From positions 1-28,227 of the IMG/VR virus record IMGVR_UViG_3300029268_001092: a stretch of 28,227 bases of DNA; one strand, 5' to 3'. The stretch is from a virus. Made by a program: the position numbers and the translations under genes. Below, piece after piece: positions 5,622 to 28,082 of this stretch; position 1 is the stretch's first letter, and every line of letters begins with the position of its first letter. The notes beneath the pieces were generated by a model. That model was not told the origin of the DNA and ran no database searches. It saw only the letters and a list, made by a program, of their open reading frames with translations.

Positions 5622-6046
5622 CGGCTGCCTCCTGTTGCCAATCCGGTCCGCTCGCGCATGTTAGCCGAAATGGTCTCGGATTTGTCAACGTCAACGTATC
5701 GATTCCCGACTTTTATGGCAATACTTCCGATGGCCACAACCGCTCCGAGCGGGCTTGAAAGTCCCATCGCTATCAGTCCGCCAATCTCCACGCCCTCGCT
5801 TATGTTGGCTTGGGCGATGTAGTCTCCGGTCAGGTTTCCATAATTGCTGGTGACATAGCTGATGGCTTGCTTTTTCAAATGAGTGGCAATCGCCTTGGCG
5901 GTCCCGCCCTCTTTGGTTGATTTTTTGACCATGGCATCGGCGGTTTCTTTTGGGCTGGCCGGAGTTCCCGGTTCAGTCGCGGCCCCATCGATCTGTTCGA
6001 GCCCAACAACAGTGTTTGTGACCTTGATGTGGTATTCTTTTTTCAT
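5618..6046 (-). CDS. Small Gly/Ala-rich tail-region protein, function unknown
   Basis: 142 aa with a GAGGT ribosome binding site. The first 30 residues are polar and Thr/Pro-rich. The middle is helical and basic (KKSTKEGGTAKAIATHLKKQ), followed by a Gly/Ala-rich hydrophobic stretch (about residues 82-112, containing GGLIAMGLSS and GAVVAIGSIAIKVG) that could insert in or cross a membrane. It sits where siphophages place the tape measure (between neck/tail genes and the hub) but is far too short to be one. A role as a small pilot or membrane-penetrating protein is a guess. Overlap with the hub gene by 4 nt implies co-translation. Confidence 0.7.
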   Translation of the reverse strand: MKKEYHIKVTNTVVGLEQIDGAATEPGTPASPKETADAMVKKSTKEGGTAKAIATHLKKQAISYVTSNYGNLTGDYIAQANISEGVEIGGLIAMGLSSPLGAVVAIGSIAIKVGNRYVDVDKSETISANMRERTGLATGGSR

Positions 6047-6050
6047 GGTG

Positions 6051-8108: not shown

Positions 8109-9224
8109 TCAGTCTGCGTTCCAAACTGCGGTGATGGTCACAACGTTGCCCGGCATAACATAGTTAAAGCCGGCCGAGTAGAGATGGGTCCCGTCGCTCC
8201 AACCAACGAATGTGTAACCGGTCTTGGTGAATGGATTTGCCGGCAATACGAATTCGCCATCAGGCGCGGTAGCCGCTTGAGTCGGAAGGGTTCCGGTTCC
8301 GCCGCCATTCGCGAAAGTGACCGCGTAGGTGGTGGCAGCAGTGGTTTTGAAAACGTAAATCGCACGGGTGAGTTCTGGATAAACAAATTGGTCGTGTTTC
8401 AAGCCGATGTCCGCTTGGAGTTTTCTCCCGCCATGGCCTGGGATTTTGTCAAAGATGACGGTCTCTTGGTACTTGTTCCAAGCTGGTGCCGCATCCTTAT
8501 GAACCAAAATCGCCTGGACTCCGGTCGGGAAGAACCGTTCAGGAACGGCTTTCAGTTTGCACCGGTCGATCATTTCGACGGTGATGTCCATGTTGCCGTT
8601 CCAATTGCCGAGAGCCCAATAGCCCTTAGCAACAGCGGCTTCCTTGGCGATCGCTTTGGTCCCGGATTTGATGTACAGGATCCACGCGCCGTCATCGATC
8701 AACGCATCATCCAAACGGGATTCTGCGTGCAAAATTTCAGCAACAAAGTTGTCCTTGGTTAAGGTCAGCATCTTGCAATAAATGTTGGCAGTGCCAACGA
8801 TCTTTCCAAAACGATAGGTGTCAACCGCTGGTGCCTGGATCTTTTTCATGTAACGGTTGGCGAAACGAACGATTCCGTTTCCCAGCGCATCCTGGTCGGC
8901 GATCTTCTCAACGGAGATGCTGTTACCGATGTCCTGGGTCAGTGTCAAGGTTTCCCAAGTTGTGTGGACGTCCATCTGGGTATACCCGGCCGAGAACGAA
9001 TAGGTTCCAGGAACTAGGCTACCAAATTGGATTTTCTGGTATTTGATCGTGTTCGCACCGTCGAATTCTCCGGATTCATCCAGGAGGTCGGCGGTGTACA
9101 GAAACCCGATCAGCGTTCGCTCAAGCTCTTCCGGTTCGGAGATGTAACGGATTGCATCATCGAGGGTGCTGGCGAAAAATTGAAAAGTGATCGCATTGAT
9201 CACAAGTGCCAATAATTTTCTCAT
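8109..9224 (-). CDS. Major capsid protein with Prp-type leader and C-terminal InlB-repeat-like domain
   Basis: 371 aa, with a good AAAGGAG site. It directly follows the GP20-type scaffold gene, the standard place for an HK97-fold major capsid protein. Residues 1-17 form a basic-hydrophobic leader ending TFQFF, followed by AS; this closely matches the LQFF/AS cleavage site of Bacillota L27 ribosomal precursors and the leader of the phage 80alpha capsid protein. Residues ~18-298 are the capsid core. Residues 300-371 form a separate domain (AVTFANGGGTGTLP, then TKTGYTFVGWSDGTHLY, ending in TAVW) typical of the InlB B-repeat/Flg_new family of bacterial surface proteins. Cleavage would leave 354 residues. 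Capsid identity rests on synteny and size. Confidence 0.85.
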   Translation of the reverse strand: MRKLLALVINAITFQFFASTLDDAIRYISEPEELERTLIGFLYTADLLDESGEFDGANTIKYQKIQFGSLVPGTYSFSAGYTQMDVHTTWETLTLTQDIGNSISVEKIADQDALGNGIVRFANRYMKKIQAPAVDTYRFGKIVGTANIYCKMLTLTKDNFVAEILHAESRLDDALIDDGAWILYIKSGTKAIAKEAAVAKGYWALGNWNGNMDITVEMIDRCKLKAVPERFFPTGVQAILVHKDAAPAWNKYQETVIFDKIPGHGGRKLQADIGLKHDQFVYPELTRAIYVFKTTAATTYAVTFANGGGTGTLPTQAATAPDGEFVLPANPFTKTGYTFVGWSDGTHLYSAGFNYVMPGNVVTITAVWNAD

Positions 9225-9242
9225 AATTGCTCCTTTTGCTTT

Positions 9243-9854
9243 TTAAGATATTTTTCTGAATTTTGCAAAGTTGTCTTCGGTGGAGTTAGGGGTCTTGTTC
9301 GGTTCGTTCGGATTTTTCCCGAGTTTGTTTTTGGAATTGTCCGGGGTGTTGAACAGGTAGGCGTGCGAGTCTTTCAGAGTTTTAATCTGATCATCGAGCC
9401 CCTGGACCTTGCCGTCCTTGAGTTCGGCTTTGTCCAAGAAATCCTTCAAATGAGCCTTTACTGCAATCAAATCCTTTGCTCCAATGTTAGGTTCCGACAG
9501 ATGTTTCTCAATGGTGTCGGCCCGATCGCGAGCTGCGAGCTTGGCATCATATTCAGCCTTTGCCGTAGCGTTTTGCGTTTTGAGTGTTTCGATCTGACGA
9601 GTGAGTTCCTCCGAATTCCCTTTGAATTTCCCGAGTTCGGCGATCTGAGCATCCCGCGCAGTTACAAGGCCTTTGCTGTCCTTGAGCTGGTTGTTGATCT
9701 CATCAAATACCGATTTCGGGATTAGTTTTTCCTCAGCCGGGTTGATGACAAATCCGGCGGCTTTCGTGTTGATCTGCGTGACTAGCTCTTGGCCTAATAG
9801 ATCGGTTAGGGCCTTAAGCTTGGCTTCTGACAGAACGTTTTTCAAAAAATCCAT
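9243..9854 (-). CDS. Capsid scaffolding protein, Phage_GP20 family
   Basis: 203 aa from the ATG at 9854, chosen because AAGGAG lies 6 nt upstream; the frame extends to 9929 but without a site. The sequence follows the GP20/scaffold family closely: an N-terminal helix (MDFLKNVLSEAKLKALTDLL), an IPKSVFDEINNQLKDSK segment, a long coiled coil with the typical LTRQIETLKTQNATAKAEYD pattern, an AVKAHLKDFLD segment, then GLDDQIKTLKDSHAYLF and a low-complexity Asn/Pro tail. These proteins form the internal core on which the capsid assembles and are then removed. No FF/A-type cleavage motif is seen near its N-terminus, unlike the capsid protein. Confidence 0.85.
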   Translation of the reverse strand: MDFLKNVLSEAKLKALTDLLGQELVTQINTKAAGFVINPAEEKLIPKSVFDEINNQLKDSKGLVTARDAQIAELGKFKGNSEELTRQIETLKTQNATAKAEYDAKLAARDRADTIEKHLSEPNIGAKDLIAVKAHLKDFLDKAELKDGKVQGLDDQIKTLKDSHAYLFNTPDNSKNKLGKNPNEPNKTPNSTEDNFAKFRKIS

Positions 9855-9901
9855 TTTCTTCTCCTTCTTGGCTTTTTTTGGCGGTCGCCTCCGCCTGAAG
9901 T

Positions 9902-9940
9902 GCAACGATGTGGTCCGTTGCGAAACCAATAATTATTGGT
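9902..9940 (-). promoter_or_regulatory. Hairpin plus 16-bp perfect palindrome in the prp-scaffold gap
   Basis: The 131-bp gap between the protease and scaffold genes has no gene. It contains the inverted repeat GCAACG/CGTTGC (9902-9907 and 9916-9921, 8-nt loop) and then the perfect palindrome ACCAATAATTATTGGT (9925-9940). Neither is followed by a T-run on the minus strand, so they are not terminators. They could form an mRNA stabilising or processing structure, or bind a dimeric protein. Confidence 0.45.
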
Positions 9941-9985
9941 GCAGATCGTCCGAGTGGTCCCGGATTTTCCGCATAATAAAAGGAC

Positions 9986-10333
9986 TTATCCGTTTAAGCC
10001 CATTGTTGGTTGTTTTGATTGTGGCACTACCATGATCCTGAATACCTGCAGATATTTCGGGTTCTCCGCAGCAAGGCTTTTGAGCACTTCGGCGGTGACC
10101 GCAATCACGTTTTTGGCGGTTAGTGTCGCCCCTCCCTGTTCGAGCTTCAGCCCGATGAAAGGAATTTTTGGATCGGTTTCAATTTTGAACTTGGCTTTTT
10201 CTTTCTGCAACAGGCCGCCTGCCATTTTGAAAGCACATGAGATCGCGGCACAAACAATATCGCCACCGGGTGCTGCATAACAGCTGTGCCCGGCCGCGGT
10301 GATTTCGTACGTGGTGTATTTTATAGTCGTCAT
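9986..10333 (-). CDS. prp: Ribosomal-processing cysteine protease Prp (YsxB family) homologue, capsid protease candidate
   Basis: 115 aa from the ATG at 10333, which follows a strong GAGGAGG site; the frame extends upstream to 10447 but only inside the minor capsid gene. The N-terminus has the family signature: G-H-S-x-Y-A at residues 15-20, then GGDIVCAAIS at 23-32. This places the catalytic-type His16 and Cys28 12 residues apart, the same spacing as His22/Cys34 in Staphylococcus aureus Prp. Length is close to bacterial Prp (about 106-110 aa). Cellular Prp removes the N-terminal extension of L27. Here the gene sits between minor capsid and scaffold genes, and the capsid protein two genes on carries a Prp-like site, so it most likely matures the capsid. 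Confidence 0.85.
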   Translation of the reverse strand: MTTIKYTTYEITAAGHSCYAAPGGDIVCAAISCAFKMAGGLLQKEKAKFKIETDPKIPFIGLKLEQGGATLTAKNVIAVTAEVLKSLAAENPKYLQVFRIMVVPQSKQPTMGLNG

Positions 10334-11433
10334 TCGTCCTCCTCGTTGTAATATGTCTCGCTGTCGCTGACAATGGTCCGCCAGGCGTAGAAGGCTCGGC
10401 CCATCTTCAGTGAGAATTGTTTGTACTCGTTGGTCATCAATCGCCATTCGAGGCGCAAGGTCCGTGCCGACTCAGGATCGCCGCTGGCTCGCAAGATCGC
10501 TTCCTCAGTTTTCATTTCCCGGATGTTGTTCTCGTAGTCCCGTTGGCGCTGGTCGATGGCATATTCCCGTTTGATCTGCTGCCGTGTGTACTCGGTCGGG
10601 GCCTGGGATCCGTCCGTGTAGGCTACCGCTCGGTGCCGGCAATTGAACCCGTTCAGAATGGAGTTTCCATTGTGCAGATCCAGGGCATCCTGCAAATACG
10701 TGTACGGGATCCCGTTATGAACCCCGGTTTTGTCGTTCGGGTTCAAGCTGTAGAGCTTCCCCTGATAGGGCGCACATCTTGGGCTGGCATCTGGATGGCT
10801 TGTGATCCACACGTAATCGACTCCGGCCGATTGTAAATTCTGAAGGTCGGTCATGTTGGCTTGGTGCCGGACGGTCATTTCCGCCCGGTTTCGCAAACTC
10901 ATGGTGTATGTGTATCCCGCTCGCCCAGTCTCTTCGTTTTCAGAGACGGTCACGATTTTGGGCGGCTCCGCTGCTAGAGCTTTCAGAGCAACCTTCAGCT
11001 TCCGGTTGTAATCGTCAATCACGGCCAGTCCCTTTTGGCTTTCTGCCAGGTATGGCCGGACCGCACTCAGTCGGATTCCTTCAATGTTTGCTAGCAACGC
11101 TGCAACGGATCCGGTGTACACTCCGCTTTCGAACTTGCTCACCTTGGCCGCCAAGTTCCGGTTCAGGATCCTAATCGAGGTGCTGAGTTGGTAGTACCAT
11201 TTCCGGCTTGAGGTGACCAGGGCTTTCCGGGTCTCTTCTCGCAACACCGGGTTGGTGATCTGCTCGCACGTTTCCGCGATCGCTTTGTTAAGCCCTGCGA
11301 CGATCTCCTCCTGAGCCTTGTTTTCCATTAGGCCCTCGGTGATGATGACCTTGATACGGGTGGTTGCGGAACTGATCAAAATCAGAACCTTTTGGGCCAC
11401 GTTCTCCTTTGGGCTGCTAACGCTAAGTTGCAT
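10330..11433 (-). CDS. Phage minor capsid protein 2 family protein
   Basis: 367 aa, starting at an ATG preceded by a weak GGGGG site; a later in-frame Met at residue 36 is possible. The helical N-terminal half is followed by the diagnostic central block: YTYTMSLRNRAEMTVRHQA, WITSHPDASPRCAPYQGKLYSL, an IPYT segment and NGFNCRHRAV, which match the Phage_min_cap2 family (A118/SPP1-gp7-like). These proteins sit inside the head, bind the portal and may leave with the DNA. The C-terminal ~90 residues are helical and charged. The order portal, minor capsid, protease, scaffold, capsid is standard. It overlaps the protease gene by 4 nt. Confidence 0.85.
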   Translation of the reverse strand: MQLSVSSPKENVAQKVLILISSATTRIKVIITEGLMENKAQEEIVAGLNKAIAETCEQITNPVLREETRKALVTSSRKWYYQLSTSIRILNRNLAAKVSKFESGVYTGSVAALLANIEGIRLSAVRPYLAESQKGLAVIDDYNRKLKVALKALAAEPPKIVTVSENEETGRAGYTYTMSLRNRAEMTVRHQANMTDLQNLQSAGVDYVWITSHPDASPRCAPYQGKLYSLNPNDKTGVHNGIPYTYLQDALDLHNGNSILNGFNCRHRAVAYTDGSQAPTEYTRQQIKREYAIDQRQRDYENNIREMKTEEAILRASGDPESARTLRLEWRLMTNEYKQFSLKMGRAFYAWRTIVSDSETYYNEEDE

Positions 11434-11443
11434 GAGTTACCCC

Positions 11444-13252
11444 CTAGGTCTGGCCTTGTTCGAGTTCCTGTTTCTTTTTGGCCTCTTCTTCCTCTTTGGC
11501 TTTGTCTTCGGCTTCCTTGGCTAGTCGTTCCTCTTCCTGTTTTTTCGAATCAACAAAGCCGGTTAGGTCGGGAAGGTTGTTTGGGTTGTCAAGGCTCATC
11601 CCGTCCTCAAATCTGATTAGGTTCACCTCTTCATCGACCTGGTCTTTGTCCCAGTCTGGATGGATCTGTCTGATAGCCTCGTGTGTACTGGCCACTCTTG
11701 CTGTTTTGGCAGCGCCCCAGGTGGTGATCTTTTCGGAGATCCGCTCGATGATGTAATCTCCGAACTCGATGTCCACGTCGATTTTCTCATTCGTCAGATC
11801 GATCCAGTTTTCGTTTTCCGGTTTAACCAAACCCTGACGGATCATCCAGTTGTACAGTTGGATCCCCATTCGGATGACCTGTTCCGAGAATGGTTTCCAA
11901 AGCTTGAGCTTTTGCGAACGCGTTTCAAGGGTGGCTTTATTTCGCTCAATTTGGCTGTCAGCTGCGGCATTGACACTCTCCAGCCCTGTTATGCCAAGGG
12001 CTACCGGGCTTAATCCTGTGTTGTTTATGGCGGTCGTTAAGGCGGTCCGGTACTTGATCAAATCCGACTCGGACTTGTCCGGGATCACCTGGATCCTGAT
12101 CTCGTTCTTGGCGTTTTGATCGTTGTCTCCCTCGACCTGGACATAGTTGTTAACGAAGTCGTCCGGGAGCAATGGCTCCATTTTTCCGGTGTCTTCGTTG
12201 TACCAAGTTGGGACCATGTTTTTCGGAATGTAGCGCTTGGTCATGTTCTCCCGGAGTTCCGCGATCAGCCGGCTGTAGGCCTCGTCCAATCCGTCGAAGC
12301 TGTCCATGTTGCCCTCGTAATCGCTTGCTCCGTATGGGCTGTCCGGGAACTCGTGGCTCGGAGTCATGTTGGGCTTGTCAAAGGCTAGCATGCCCTTGAT
12401 GCCCGTGTACACGAACTCGCCGTCATCATTCAGAATCGGTTTTGGGTTCCCGTCCTCGTCGGTTGAAAACATGACGGCCTGGCCCTCTGGGATGGTGTCC
12501 AAAGCAACCCGTGTTTGCTCGCCATTATTTTTAACGTTGTAAAGTTCATATCGGATCAGCGCATCGCCATCGGCGTTGGTCGTGTAGACCTCGTCCATGC
12601 GATAGTGCTCTTTTCCTGAGTCATACCAATACGCGAATGTGATGGCGGTGGTGATCCCCCTCTCCTTGGTAGCTCGCCCGCGCTTGATGTCGGCGGTTTC
12701 AAAGATTGGGAACTTTTTCAAGCTGATGTCGTGCGACCATTTTGCGAAAAGATGCCCGCCCCAAGACTCGTTCTGTGCCCCGCATTTGAAATTATCGGGG
12801 AGGTTGGCCTCTTTCACGATGGTGTCGACTATAGCTTGTGCCGGATCGGTTTTTTCTTCGTCCTTTTTTCCGTCCTTATCCAGGACCTGAATGAGGGGTT
12901 GGAATCCGCTGGCAAACAGGATCGTTCCCATTTTTTTGGAGATCAGGCCGGGGATCCCGCAGTGCAACATTCGTGCATTGGATGGCGCTTTGTACCAAAA
13001 GTAGTTCATGTTCTCCTTCTTGTTGGTTCCCAAGTACATTCGCCGGATCAGACGGGAGTTCCCCATAAACCAAACCTGGTACTCACAAATTCGCCTTGTG
13101 AAATCCTCGGTGCTGCCCCCGGTGTCGATCTTCAGGGCGAACCGTGGATCAAAATTTATTGTGTTTTTGTCTGTTAGCATGTTGATGCCCTCCTGCAATT
13201 TCTTTAGCCATCTAGCGTTTTTCCACTCTTTGAATTTATCAAAAATGCTCAT
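11444..13252 (-). CDS. Portal protein (SPP1/A118-like)
   Basis: 602 aa. The product has the length and order expected of a phage portal: an N-terminal helical lead, then TRRICEYQVWFMGNSRLIRRMY, a central block containing YDSGKEHYRMDEVY (typical of SPP1_Gp6-like portals), FPDSPYGASDYEGNMDSFDGLDEAYSRL, and a helical stem followed by a Glu/Lys-rich tail. Twelve copies form the ring at the unique vertex, through which DNA enters under the power of TerL. It begins shortly after the terminase gene, with CAGGAGG 11 nt before the ATG. The Lys/Glu-rich C-terminal ~40 residues are low complexity. Confidence 0.9.
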   Translation of the reverse strand: MSIFDKFKEWKNARWLKKLQEGINMLTDKNTINFDPRFALKIDTGGSTEDFTRRICEYQVWFMGNSRLIRRMYLGTNKKENMNYFWYKAPSNARMLHCGIPGLISKKMGTILFASGFQPLIQVLDKDGKKDEEKTDPAQAIVDTIVKEANLPDNFKCGAQNESWGGHLFAKWSHDISLKKFPIFETADIKRGRATKERGITTAITFAYWYDSGKEHYRMDEVYTTNADGDALIRYELYNVKNNGEQTRVALDTIPEGQAVMFSTDEDGNPKPILNDDGEFVYTGIKGMLAFDKPNMTPSHEFPDSPYGASDYEGNMDSFDGLDEAYSRLIAELRENMTKRYIPKNMVPTWYNEDTGKMEPLLPDDFVNNYVQVEGDNDQNAKNEIRIQVIPDKSESDLIKYRTALTTAINNTGLSPVALGITGLESVNAAADSQIERNKATLETRSQKLKLWKPFSEQVIRMGIQLYNWMIRQGLVKPENENWIDLTNEKIDVDIEFGDYIIERISEKITTWGAAKTARVASTHEAIRQIHPDWDKDQVDEEVNLIRFEDGMSLDNPNNLPDLTGFVDSKKQEEERLAKEAEDKAKEEEEAKKKQELEQGQT

Positions 13253-13255
13253 GTT

Positions 13256-14659
13256 CTATGCTGCCTCCTGTTTGAACGCACTCATCATCTTGTGCATATG
13301 TCTTGTCCAGCTGTATTCCGTTGCATCGATCTTGTCATTGTGCGGTTCGTTCTTGTCTTCACGTTCCTGGCCTTTTTTGCCCTCGGCCCACTTGGCCATC
13401 TTGAACGCATCGTAGCAGTCACGACCTTCCCGAGTGTCATTGAAAATGCACCGACCGCTAGAGAATAGGATGATCCCCATGTCGATCCGCTCTTTGATCG
13501 TGGCTTTGAACGACGGGATGATCGGCGGTAGTTTGAGCGCCCGGAAGGTGGTTGATATGTCGCTGATGAAGTTGGCTTCGGCGGAGTCGATGGAGATGTA
13601 CTCAATGTTCGCTCCCCGAGCCAGCCACATGCGAACAAACGCAATGAGCCGCTCTTTCTTGTTTTCATAGCCCAGTTGCTGAAAGGTCACTTTGTCAATA
13701 AAGGCCGTGTTGTAGTAGTCCAGGCTGAACCCCTGGAGGTTGAACGAGTTCTGGGCTCGGCTGGCTCCAATGTCGCATCCGACTACGCAATGGGGGTATT
13801 TCCGGAGGTCGACCGGTTTGATCAGTTTGTCCGGGTCCATGTAATCCAGATAAATCAGTTCTCCTGGTGATCCTCGTTCTCCGAGGACCTTGATGGTGTA
13901 GTAGTATGATCCGACCGGGAATACCTCCATGGTTCGAGCTATCTTCGCGGGGGTCATGATCGGATTGTCCGTGAAGGTAAAATGAACGTAGAACCAACCC
14001 GGTTCCTTCTTGACTTTGTCCATGTCCGCGAGAATGCTGGCCGGTGTCGTAGCCCGGTATTTTTTCATTACGTTGCACCGGTTGATGTAGTCCTGGTAGA
14101 CCCAAAGCTCCGGTATGTCGCCGTTCAGTGTCCAGATCTGCAGAGGCCGGTCAACGCTGCCTTGTCGCGCGAAACATTCATCAACGAACAGCTTGTCAGC
14201 GGTGTTGACCTCGTCGATCAGGATCACTCCGAGACTCTTTCCCAGGACCTTCTTCCATTTCGATTTGGTCGAGTACCCGGCTAAAAGAATCTTTTTTTCT
14301 TTCGGGTAAACGTTTGGGATTCGAGAGTGCAACAGCAGAAAATAGCTTCCTAGTTTTTCCCTGACTAGCTCAAGATCCGGAAACATGGCTAAGAGCCCGT
14401 GCTCGCCGTCTAGGATGTTGTCTCGGATGGCATCCAAGTCATTCCCGGCTATCAGGTGCAGTTCCTCGTTCGAGGCTGCCACGTTCATGTGAAAAATCGG
14501 TTTGGCATCCTCGGTCTTTGAGGACCGGATGGAGCCTTCAAACACAAGCAGGTTGCAATACGGTTTTAGCGACAGGGCCGCAACATCCAGGTACTTATCG
14601 GTGATGATGAACTGCGATCTGTCGATCGAGGCGAAACTCTCAGATGCTGCCATTGTCAT
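13256..14659 (-). CDS. terL: Terminase large subunit
   Basis: 467 aa from the ATG at 14659 (GGAGG 9 nt upstream); an ATG at 14668 and upstream in-frame starts are also possible. N-terminal ATPase: a Walker A-type loop GSIRSSKT at residues 42-49 (an SK variant seen in many phage terminases), and Walker B VILIDEVN at 145-152, with E150 as the likely catalytic carboxylate. C-terminal RNase H-like nuclease: candidate acidic residues D296 (VVGCDIGAS), D358 (ISIDSAE) and D444 (DKIDATEY). It packages phage DNA into the prohead through the portal. The start overlaps the TerS gene by 20 nt, giving coupled synthesis of both subunits. Confidence 0.93.
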   Translation of the reverse strand: MTMAASESFASIDRSQFIITDKYLDVAALSLKPYCNLLVFEGSIRSSKTEDAKPIFHMNVAASNEELHLIAGNDLDAIRDNILDGEHGLLAMFPDLELVREKLGSYFLLLHSRIPNVYPKEKKILLAGYSTKSKWKKVLGKSLGVILIDEVNTADKLFVDECFARQGSVDRPLQIWTLNGDIPELWVYQDYINRCNVMKKYRATTPASILADMDKVKKEPGWFYVHFTFTDNPIMTPAKIARTMEVFPVGSYYYTIKVLGERGSPGELIYLDYMDPDKLIKPVDLRKYPHCVVGCDIGASRAQNSFNLQGFSLDYYNTAFIDKVTFQQLGYENKKERLIAFVRMWLARGANIEYISIDSAEANFISDISTTFRALKLPPIIPSFKATIKERIDMGIILFSSGRCIFNDTREGRDCYDAFKMAKWAEGKKGQEREDKNEPHNDKIDATEYSWTRHMHKMMSAFKQEAA

Positions 14660-15143
14660 GGTTGTCATCCTCCGGGGTTTCTCCCTTTTCTTCGTCCACC
14701 ACTTCGGCTTCGACGATGTTGTCCGCATCCTCGGCTATTTGGTGTCTGCGTAGAGCTTCGATGGTGTCGTTCATGATCTGGTTGTTGATCTCGTGGCTGA
14801 CCTCCTGCCCTTCCGAGCTAGAGAGACGGACCACTTCCAGGATGGCGTTAAAGGCCTTTGTATCCCCGCGCAGCGCTTTTTGAATTTGGGCTACGACCAT
14901 GGCCGACAGCACCTCAATGTTCGTGCCGGGAATTCCCTCGTAGTTCTTGGGGAGTTTGGCGGCCCCGTGGTACATTGGCATGTGGAGGTAGTGCTGCACC
15001 AGCATGCGCATGTCACGCTGTTTTCGTTTGGCCTCAACGCTCTTTTTACCGGCTAAGGACCGGGTTTCGCGGGGTGGCTCAGCAAGGAGATTAGGATACT
15101 TTTCTTGGCGCTTTGGTTCCAAGGTGAACACCCCACTCGTCAC
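14640..15143 (-). CDS. terS: Terminase small subunit-like protein
   Basis: 167 aa from a GTG at 15143, the only start giving the whole conserved N-terminus; a TTG at residue 8 or a start within the frame near residue 20 cannot be excluded. The N-terminus has a DUF5681-like segment (NLLAEPPRETRSLAGKKSV) followed by RRM-like helical residues (MRMLVQHYLHMP), then a central helical block with KALRGDTKAFNAILEVV, the pattern of small terminase proteins in many Bacillota phages, and an acidic tail. It recognises packaging sites on the DNA and directs TerL. Its last 20 nt overlap the terL start, and it sits directly before terL. Confidence 0.75.
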   Translation of the reverse strand: MTSGVFTLEPKRQEKYPNLLAEPPRETRSLAGKKSVEAKRKQRDMRMLVQHYLHMPMYHGAAKLPKNYEGIPGTNIEVLSAMVVAQIQKALRGDTKAFNAILEVVRLSSSEGQEVSHEINNQIMNDTIEALRRHQIAEDADNIVEAEVVDEEKGETPEDDNHDNGSI

Positions 15144-18447: not shown

Positions 18448-18858
18448 TTAATCCACCTCATCCCATCGCTGCTCCAGATAGTCCATCCGCTCGGTGAATT
18501 CAGCAAAGGTTATGTCCCCCATGTTGTAGTAATATAAAGCTTCTATCATCTCACCATAGATATAATTATATTCACGCATGCGGTAAGTTTGCTCGTTTAG
18601 GTCTTCGGTTCGGATTTCATCTTCGGCTTCTAAACGGTCAATCTGATCCTGAAGCTGTTCGATTTCATCTTCGGCTTCTTGTAACCAATCTTCGGTAGAA
18701 GTGGCGGTTTCCTCTGCTGCCGCTTGTAACTGGTCTACCTCGGCTTCCAAATCGACGAATCGATGATTTACAAGGATTGTCATGATCAGCGCGAGTATAA
18801 AAAATGCAGTTGCCCAGATAATTAATGCGGTTCTTGTGCTTTTTATCTCTTCATCCAT
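18448..18858 (-). CDS. Membrane-anchored coiled-coil protein
   Basis: 136 aa from the ATG at 18858, chosen because GGGAGG lies 8 nt upstream. A single hydrophobic segment (residues ~11-30: ALIIWATAFFILALIMTILV) follows a short charged N-terminus. It is followed by an acidic coiled coil (about residues 36-85, VDLEAEVDQLQAAAEETATS; EIEQLQDQIDRLEAED), then a Tyr-rich helical tail. The predicted topology is N-in with the coiled coil outside. It overlaps the end of the lipoprotein gene by 8 nt, pairing two envelope proteins in the early operon. The shape resembles an inner-membrane spanin, but the place and likely host argue against that. Confidence 0.75.
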   Translation of the reverse strand: MDEEIKSTRTALIIWATAFFILALIMTILVNHRFVDLEAEVDQLQAAAEETATSTEDWLQEAEDEIEQLQDQIDRLEAEDEIRTEDLNEQTYRMREYNYIYGEMIEALYYYNMGDITFAEFTERMDYLEQRWDEVD

Positions 18859-19378
18859 GATTTTGTCCTCCCTCACTCGTCAATGGCTGGATGGCGGGTT
18901 TGTCCAAGTACCCAAGTTCCAACAAGACTTCTCGCACATCGTCGATTTTCAAGGTTGAAAGATATTCAACGAGTGCCTCTAGGCTTTCGTACTCGGCGGT
19001 TTTATCACCATCCCAAAAGTTTACCTCAACATAGAGTTCGGCCGATAGATCAAGGTAAGTTATTGTCAAATCGTCAACCTTGATTTTGCTGCTAAATAAC
19101 TTTGTGGTGTAATAAATTTCAATCATAGCGGTTCGTTTTTCGGCAGCATATATGGCATCAATCTCCTGGTCCTGGCCCTTAACCAACACAATGCTCCCAG
19201 AGCCATTCACATCGTTTCCATCGTACTCTTCGTTGTCGAAGTCGGTGTCTAGGCTATACACCGTTTCGATACCGTTGATTAAGTCCTTTAGAGGCTGTGT
19301 TGAAACCTTTTCTTCACAGCCAACTAAAAGGACAAAGGCCAATAGGATCAGCGTTAGGGTCGTTAATAGTTTTTTCAT
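18851..19378 (-). CDS. Predicted lipoprotein
   Basis: 175 aa. The N-terminus has a basic start (MKK), a hydrophobic core, and a lipobox LLVGC with Cys21, so the mature protein should be lipid-anchored outside the cell membrane. The rest is acidic and mainly alpha/beta (TAMIEIYYTTKLFSSKIKVDD; AELYVEVNFWDGD), ending with a helix-rich region and Gly-rich tail. It overlaps the small upstream gene (ATGA) and the coiled-coil membrane gene (8 nt). Phage-encoded lipoproteins often block superinfection (for example Ltp of TP-J34), and this is the leading guess. Confidence 0.8.
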   Translation of the reverse strand: MKKLLTTLTLILLAFVLLVGCEEKVSTQPLKDLINGIETVYSLDTDFDNEEYDGNDVNGSGSIVLVKGQDQEIDAIYAAEKRTAMIEIYYTTKLFSSKIKVDDLTITYLDLSAELYVEVNFWDGDKTAEYESLEALVEYLSTLKIDDVREVLLELGYLDKPAIQPLTSEGGQNHG

Positions 19379-27374: not shown

Positions 27375-28082
27375 TTACTCTGCGCAGATCTCAACCGGCT
27401 TACCGGTTAATTCCATGATGCCCTTTTTCATTTCTTCAGCATTGGAATTTCGATTGCTCAGATGCAATAGGTAAATTTTTTTGGTTTTCTCGAGGTCGAG
27501 CTTCTTCAGGAAATTTTTCACGTTTTCAAACTCCATGTGACTGGACAGTAGTCGCTTGCTTGCTGCCACCGTCACCAATTCTCTCCGCAAATTTTTCTCC
27601 AGCAGCTCGAGCTGGTAATTGCATTCGATCATGATGTAATCGAATTTGTCTGAAAATTGTTGACTGATGTAAAATGTATCAGTCGCGAAAAACAAGGTTT
27701 CCTCCGTGACGGTTGAATAAATCAGAAAACCGACCGGATCCGCTGCATCGTGTTTCGTCTGAAAGGCCAGAACCTTAAACGATTTGATTGTGATCAATCG
27801 TCCAGGAATCAGCGGGTTCCCGCGATATTTGAATGCTCCAAGATCTAGGACTGCAATTGTCCCTGGGGATGCATAAATGTCGCAATAGGGGGCGATGTCC
27901 TTCACGTACTTGCAGTGATCCTTGTGATCATGGCTAATCAAGCAGCCATCCAGACATGTCAGGGGGATCTCGTCCCTAACCCGGTCAATTGGGATCCCGC
28001 ACTCAACCATCAGCCGGGAACTGCCATCAGAAATTAGATAGCAGTTCCCTTTGGATGACGAGGCTAATGATTTAATCTCCAC
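27375..28082 (-). CDS. Metallo-beta-lactamase-fold hydrolase
   Basis: 235 aa; start is a GTG at 28082 with AGAGG upstream. The zinc motif HDHKDH lies at residues 51-56 (SHDHKDH), with further likely ligands H111, D135 (FFATDTFY) and H182 (SSHMEF), the usual order for the fold. It is a small MBL-fold protein of the YycJ-like type found in Bacillota phages next to recT and DnaD genes, and probably acts on nucleic acid, for example as a nuclease in replication or recombination. It overlaps the organizer's longer frame but not its chosen start. Substrate unproven. Confidence 0.88.
   Translation of the reverse strand: MEIKSLASSSKGNCYLISDGSSRLMVECGIPIDRVRDEIPLTCLDGCLISHDHKDHCKYVKDIAPYCDIYASPGTIAVLDLGAFKYRGNPLIPGRLITIKSFKVLAFQTKHDAADPVGFLIYSTVTEETLFFATDTFYISQQFSDKFDYIMIECNYQLELLEKNLRRELVTVAASKRLLSSHMEFENVKNFLKKLDLEKTKKIYLLHLSNRNSNAEEMKKGIMELTGKPVEICAE

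Follow-up and report, generated by a model that had tools for sequence, protein, structure and literature searches.

A phage-encoded Prp homologue in a head operon is paired with a capsid leader that ends in a candidate Prp cleavage site

Prp is an essential enzyme of the Bacillota, and an antibiotic target, that trims ribosomal protein L27. Its host gene lies between rplU and rpmA and its substrate is the long L27. Bacillota hosts normally possess both the enzyme and this long L27 (PMC9405229). In S. aureus the host Prp also cuts the capsid and scaffold proteins of phage 80alpha (PMC5744158), a precedent that an earlier sequence-only reading of the DNA described here had invoked and that the literature bears out. 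The 80alpha capsid (gp47) and scaffold (gp46) proteins have short N-terminal QxF/A leaders with the consensus NLQ[FH]F, both are cut, and the phage uses the host enzyme and has no prp gene (PMC5744158, PMC9405229). Phage 80alpha stays viable when its capsid protein is uncleavable or pre-cleaved, and capsid cleavage is dispensable; assembly requires the scaffold leader but not its removal (PMC5744158). The only other enzyme of the Prp clan (clan CR) is reported to be the capsid-processing cysteine protease of Cp-1, which likewise removes an N-terminal capsid extension (PMC9405229). Set beside our locus by description, the Cp-1 protease belongs to a different family of the clan and its extension is ~40 residues long.

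Several phages encode a Prp of their own. In reference phages of Enterococcus, Lactococcus, Latilactobacillus, Brochothrix, Oenococcus and Dorea, prp adjoins the head genes and is annotated as 'peptidase', 'ribosomal protein' or hypothetical. The hosts of these reference phages are Bacillota, which normally bear the enzyme themselves. We found no description in the open literature of a phage-encoded Prp acting on capsids; earlier mention in subscription papers (e.g. Wall 2015, 2017) is possible. The cutting of 80alpha heads by host Prp, owed to the chance sharing of a motif, and the annotation of phage prp as 'peptidase' were known already, and what looks new is the phage Prp as a class of capsid-maturation protease.

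Here we describe a head operon in a viral DNA of 28,227 bases (IMG/VR virus record IMGVR_UViG_3300029268_001092), the whole of which is referred to as the window. We put at roughly 0.8 the probability that a Prp encoded in this operon removes residues 1-17 of the capsid protein by cutting between F17 and A18, a cleavage predicted from the sequence. The genes lie on the minus strand, and Pfam and PHROG profiles give the order portal (11444..13252; phrog_533, E 1.2e-51), minor capsid protein 2 (10330..11433; PF06152, E 1.2e-21), Prp (9986..10333; 115 aa), scaffold (9243..9854; 203 aa; PF06810, E 2.7e-29) and major head protein (8109..9224; 371 aa). The last is a member of the phrog_422 family (E 1.4e-27 over residues 41-296; 80 relatives). 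Upstream of the portal gene, a gene at 13256-14728 occupies the place of the terminase large subunit, with weak profile support. The ATG of prp overlaps the stop codon of the minor capsid gene by 4 nt, which makes the two translationally coupled, and a Shine-Dalgarno sequence (GAGGAGG, 10338..10344) precedes prp. This gene position is unrelated to that of the host prp that serves 80alpha.

The Prp homologue that the sequence-only reading had placed between the minor capsid and scaffold genes scores 38.5 bits against Pfam Peptidase_Prp (PF04327; cut-off 27, E 1.3e-9) and matches PHROG 4478 'peptidase' (E 1.6e-8). Its GH dipeptide is at residues 15-16 and GGDIVCAA at residues 23-30; Gly15, His16, Gly23, Asp25 and Cys28 are invariant across 72 aligned Prps. 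The His-Cys dyad and structural Asp of the family (His22, Cys34 and Asp31 in SaPrp) are thus present as His16, Cys28 and Asp25. The host enzyme (SaPrp, MEROPS C108) shares the fold, these residues and the GxDIVCA motif. A PDB search with the 72-Prp profile returns Prp structures only (2g0i, 2idl, 4peo/7kld, 7jvs, 1s12). The AlphaFold2 model, built with 64 sequences, has a pLDDT of 90.5 and a pTM of 0.79, and its top 14 Foldseek matches are all Prp. The structural comparison that had been recommended, made here with VIA-align against S. aureus Prp with a covalent peptide (7kld_B), gives Z 15.8 and an rmsd of 1.7 Å over 99 residues. The protein is divergent, with ~20-33% identity to other Prps and about 16% to SaPrp, and forms a long, poorly resolved branch in the Prp tree. 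Scans with the single Prp, capsid and portal sequences of the window gave no close relatives, or only remote actinobacterial-type loci. By sequence and model the protease is a true Prp with no sign of an inactive enzyme, and its activity is predicted.

The capsid protein begins MRKLLALVINAITFQFFASTLDD. Its first 17 residues, MRKLLALVINAITFQFF (9174..9224, minus strand), end in FQFF and are followed by AS, as had been noticed, and both the Shine-Dalgarno sequence and the distribution of start codons indicate that they are translated. An AGGAG (9230..9234, minus strand) sits 5 nt before ATG1 and fixes it as the start. Apart from ATG1, only codons 5 and 8 could start translation in frame ahead of residue 84; therefore at least 10 residues ending in FQFF must be translated. 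Residues 13-19 (TFQFF/AS) place Gln at P3, Phe at P1 and a small residue at P1' inside an N-terminal leader, as in Prp substrates, and the predicted scissile bond lies between codons 9174-9176 (F17) and 9171-9173 (A18). By chance, as estimated from protein bodies, the motif [LIMFVY]Q.F[ASTG] is expected 0.0056 times per 41 positions. Shuffling the capsid N-terminus produces it in 0.75% of cases. Among 546 N-termini of related phage genes without Prp two contain it, and one of the two, in the scaffold of a relative (L184), is itself a plausible Prp site. Among 35 window genes the capsid gene is its sole carrier. The scaffold was correctly said to be without the motif and is probably not a substrate.

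Some features of the locus speak against the proposed cleavage. The site has Phe at P4 and Thr at P5 where Leu/Ile and Asn/Asp are usual rather than strictly defining, a scaffold without a site is less usual, and the Prp itself is divergent. The Phe at P4 and the long Prp branch fit a shifted specificity of the enzyme. The leader, at 17 residues, compares with a median of 13 (IQR 11-16) among the survey matches listed; its length and the head-operon position of prp are typical of Prp phages. The phages of PHROG 4478 'peptidase' (Enterococcus phiFL3A, Lactococcus PLgT-1/TP712, Brochothrix BL3, Oenococcus phiS13) resemble the window in having a head-operon prp and N-terminal sites on head proteins. 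Their sites are on scaffold and capsid with Leu at P4, whereas that of the window is on the capsid alone with Phe at P4.

The nearest relative of the window, contig L343, has the same gene order minus Prp. Identity is 48% in the capsid (including a C-terminal repeat domain), 44% in the portal and 39% in the minor capsid protein; the scaffolds are not alignable, and a further scan for closer capsid relatives gave L343 only. The Prp profile found nothing in the 7.4-kb contig (best E 1.6), a paired absence that rests on one close relative; given the length of the contig, a Prp elsewhere in the L343 phage is possible. The L343 capsid begins MNTIEKAIRYLSEPE. Its M1 aligns to A18 of the window, and the window residues A18-S-T-L-D-D-A-I-R-Y-I-S-E-P-E align from there, so that the window has two things that L343 lacks, prp and a leader of 17 residues with FF as its exact end. 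Since L343 has no Prp and the first residue of its capsid corresponds to A18, leader and protease are present or absent together. By alignment, the leader has been added precisely, up to and including the candidate cleavage motif. The next nearest relatives, L183 and L184, have neither Prp nor leader. They align without gaps to window residues 17-54, with A18 at their residue 2, and their BLOSUM62 scores over the first 32 residues are 29 and 31 (shuffled maxima 24 and 21). The leader is therefore absent from all three presumably unprocessed homologues and ends at their N-terminus. No Prp was found in the flanking sequence examined around 80 IMG/VR capsid relatives.

The SPP1-type capsids are, on sequence comparison, a second and independent case with and without Prp. 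The phages phiFL3A and BL3 encode Prp, and their capsid leaders end LQIF/AAKTKIEDVIVPE and LQKF/AAGKNTRIADVIVPE, respectively. Five SPP1-type relatives without Prp in the regions examined (Terrisporobacter TVCOM_ph1, SPP1, an Acinetobacter phage, Javan117 and A403) have capsids that begin about at the leader junction, with no leader.

The Prp head arrangement is widespread and the window is not a single oddity. A Prp profile scan of IMG/VR returned at least 599 candidate stretches, at least 552 of them encoding a relative. The survey of phage head clusters for prp and its site, proposed along with the sequence-only reading, drew on 162 loci, grouped at 70% identity into 99 clusters, among the matches listed. 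Four matches from the phage collection (L011-L014) were left out because they are host rplU-prp-rpmA fragments. An LQxF/A-type site near a nearby N-terminus accompanies 87 of the 99 Prp clusters, and 73 of the 79 clusters with at least 3 kb of downstream sequence, again among the matches listed. In the 186 sites from these matches P4 is L (165), I (17), M (2) or Y (2, at L104 and L173), P5 is mainly N or D, P1 is F in 176 and P1' is A in 159; Gln at P3 is invariant because the search required it. Sites are usually found on both scaffold and capsid, and sometimes also on the tail tube protein. Apparent capsid-only sites like that of the window are found at L045, L108, L118, L123, L127 and L173. 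No site was visible at L034, L068, L046 and L138, mostly without head genes nearby. At L086 (4667-6959) the sites are variants, VDLKLF/D on the scaffold and INLSLF/D on the capsid, with Lys or Ser at P3 and Asp at P1', a sequence pattern that suggests shifted Prp specificity.

Prp is also found fused to its putative substrate. At L130 (3633-4844) and L134 (3619-4830) it is joined in frame to the scaffold, with FDLQLF/G between the domains. The linker contains no ATG, GTG or TTG, and presumably the fusion protein must therefore cut itself. Further Prp-scaffold fusions with an LQxF/A-type site between the domains are found at L015, L126, L142, L144, L146, L160 and L170; at L126, L144, L160 and L170 the site is preceded by an internal Met. 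Tail tube-like proteins with LQLF/A leaders are encoded at L002 (12848-13342), L029, L040, L132, L135 and L164, and such leaders suggest that Prp may trim tails as well in some Prp phages. At L021, L023 and L041, IQ[RK]F/A/T-type motifs open three to four different structural genes around prp.

The leader might instead be cut by a host Prp, as in 80alpha, with the phage enzyme redundant or directed at another substrate (L27, FlhB or a tail protein). Bacillota are the likely hosts of this phage: a Shine-Dalgarno sequence precedes 31 of 39 window genes, compared with 16% of random positions, and the best methyltransferase relatives are in Clostridia and Erysipelotrichales, although a related head operon sought at the loci of those methyltransferase relatives was not found. 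The best matches of one window gene (27375-28082, minus strand) among the genome loci compared are in Prevotella/Muribaculaceae prophages (E ~1e-37), which conflicts with the Bacillota signal from the other genes. A host Prp, if present, could cut the window leader, and candidate sites do occur in relatives without their own Prp, namely in the scaffolds of L184 and of Anoxybacillus phage A403. Yet L343, without Prp, is also without the leader; prp lies inside the head operon and is coupled to it; and the window site is unlike the L27 consensus, with no other window gene carrying one. We regard cutting by the host enzyme as unlikely, though the most serious of the alternatives.

That FQFF/AS is a coincidence, an uncut part of the N-arm of the capsid family, is considerably less probable. 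The N-terminus of the family is typically MANSIALAxKFLP. A first alignment with distant relatives placed FQFF on this conserved arm, 26 of 68 family members favour that register, and the atypical P4 and P5 agree with it. The distant relatives align ambiguously, as do the register scans, and the reading from the first alignment was overruled by the register of L183 and L184 and then by that of L343, in which A18 is residue 1 or 2 without gaps. The motif would arise by chance at about 0.4-0.7%, and it ends exactly at the family N-terminus. The leader also has the look of a membrane or export signal, with its basic start and hydrophobic stretch (MRKLLALVINAITFQFFAS), but major capsid proteins are cytoplasmic, short basic-hydrophobic leaders before LQxF/A are the rule among the Prp phages surveyed, and the leader is missing where Prp is missing. 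An export function is accordingly the least credible of the explanations, with very little to recommend it.

Cleavage of the capsid leader by the phage-encoded Prp would proceed as follows. The protease would be made from the head operon, coupled to the minor capsid gene and just ahead of scaffold and capsid. It would recognise the QFF motif while the capsid protein is nascent or has just folded, and cut TFQFF/AST at F17/A18, so that 17 residues are removed. The assembled protein would then start at A18, the putative ancestral N-terminus of the capsid family. The predicted substrate is thus the capsid, where that of the host enzyme is L27. Cutting probably takes place during head assembly, and the leader may act in folding or assembly before its removal, a role that has been suggested for the N-terminus of the 80alpha scaffold. 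The claim that the phage matures its capsid with its own Prp stands in so far as the enzyme is a genuine Prp with which the leader is paired. A need of cleavage for maturation is not to be assumed, because 80alpha survives with a capsid protein that is uncleavable or already cut. Independence from the host enzyme and action on host L27, which the sequence-only reading also put forward, are conjectural, as Bacillota hosts normally have a Prp and a long L27.

More broadly, phage Prps may be widespread, undescribed head-maturation proteases. The module, made up of the prp gene and short QxF/A leaders on the capsid, the scaffold and at times the tail tube, would pass among unrelated capsid families and would include self-cleaving polyproteins of Prp and scaffold; window-like members would have a shifted specificity (F at P4), possibly orthogonal to host Prp and L27. 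We give this wider proposal about even odds. That many phages possess their own Prp and matched leaders suggests that the trimming is of value to the phages themselves; the viable uncleavable 80alpha capsid is the counterpoint. The window and L343 are a ready-made pair, with and without protease and leader, for the study of what the leader does. The Prp-scaffold fusions and the shifted sites provide direct material on the role of the leader and on the evolution of Prp specificity.

Two further features of the window were observed. The capsid protein has a C-terminal InlB B-repeat-like domain (8115-8327; PF09479, PF18998), also present in L343, and L184 encodes a small protein resembling it in an ORF of its own (5858-6049) directly downstream of the capsid gene; the domain may serve as a surface decoration. 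A 175-aa protein encoded at 18851-19378 on the minus strand has a lipoprotein-like signal (MKKLLTTLTLILLAFVLLVGC) and is possibly a phage-encoded lipoprotein.
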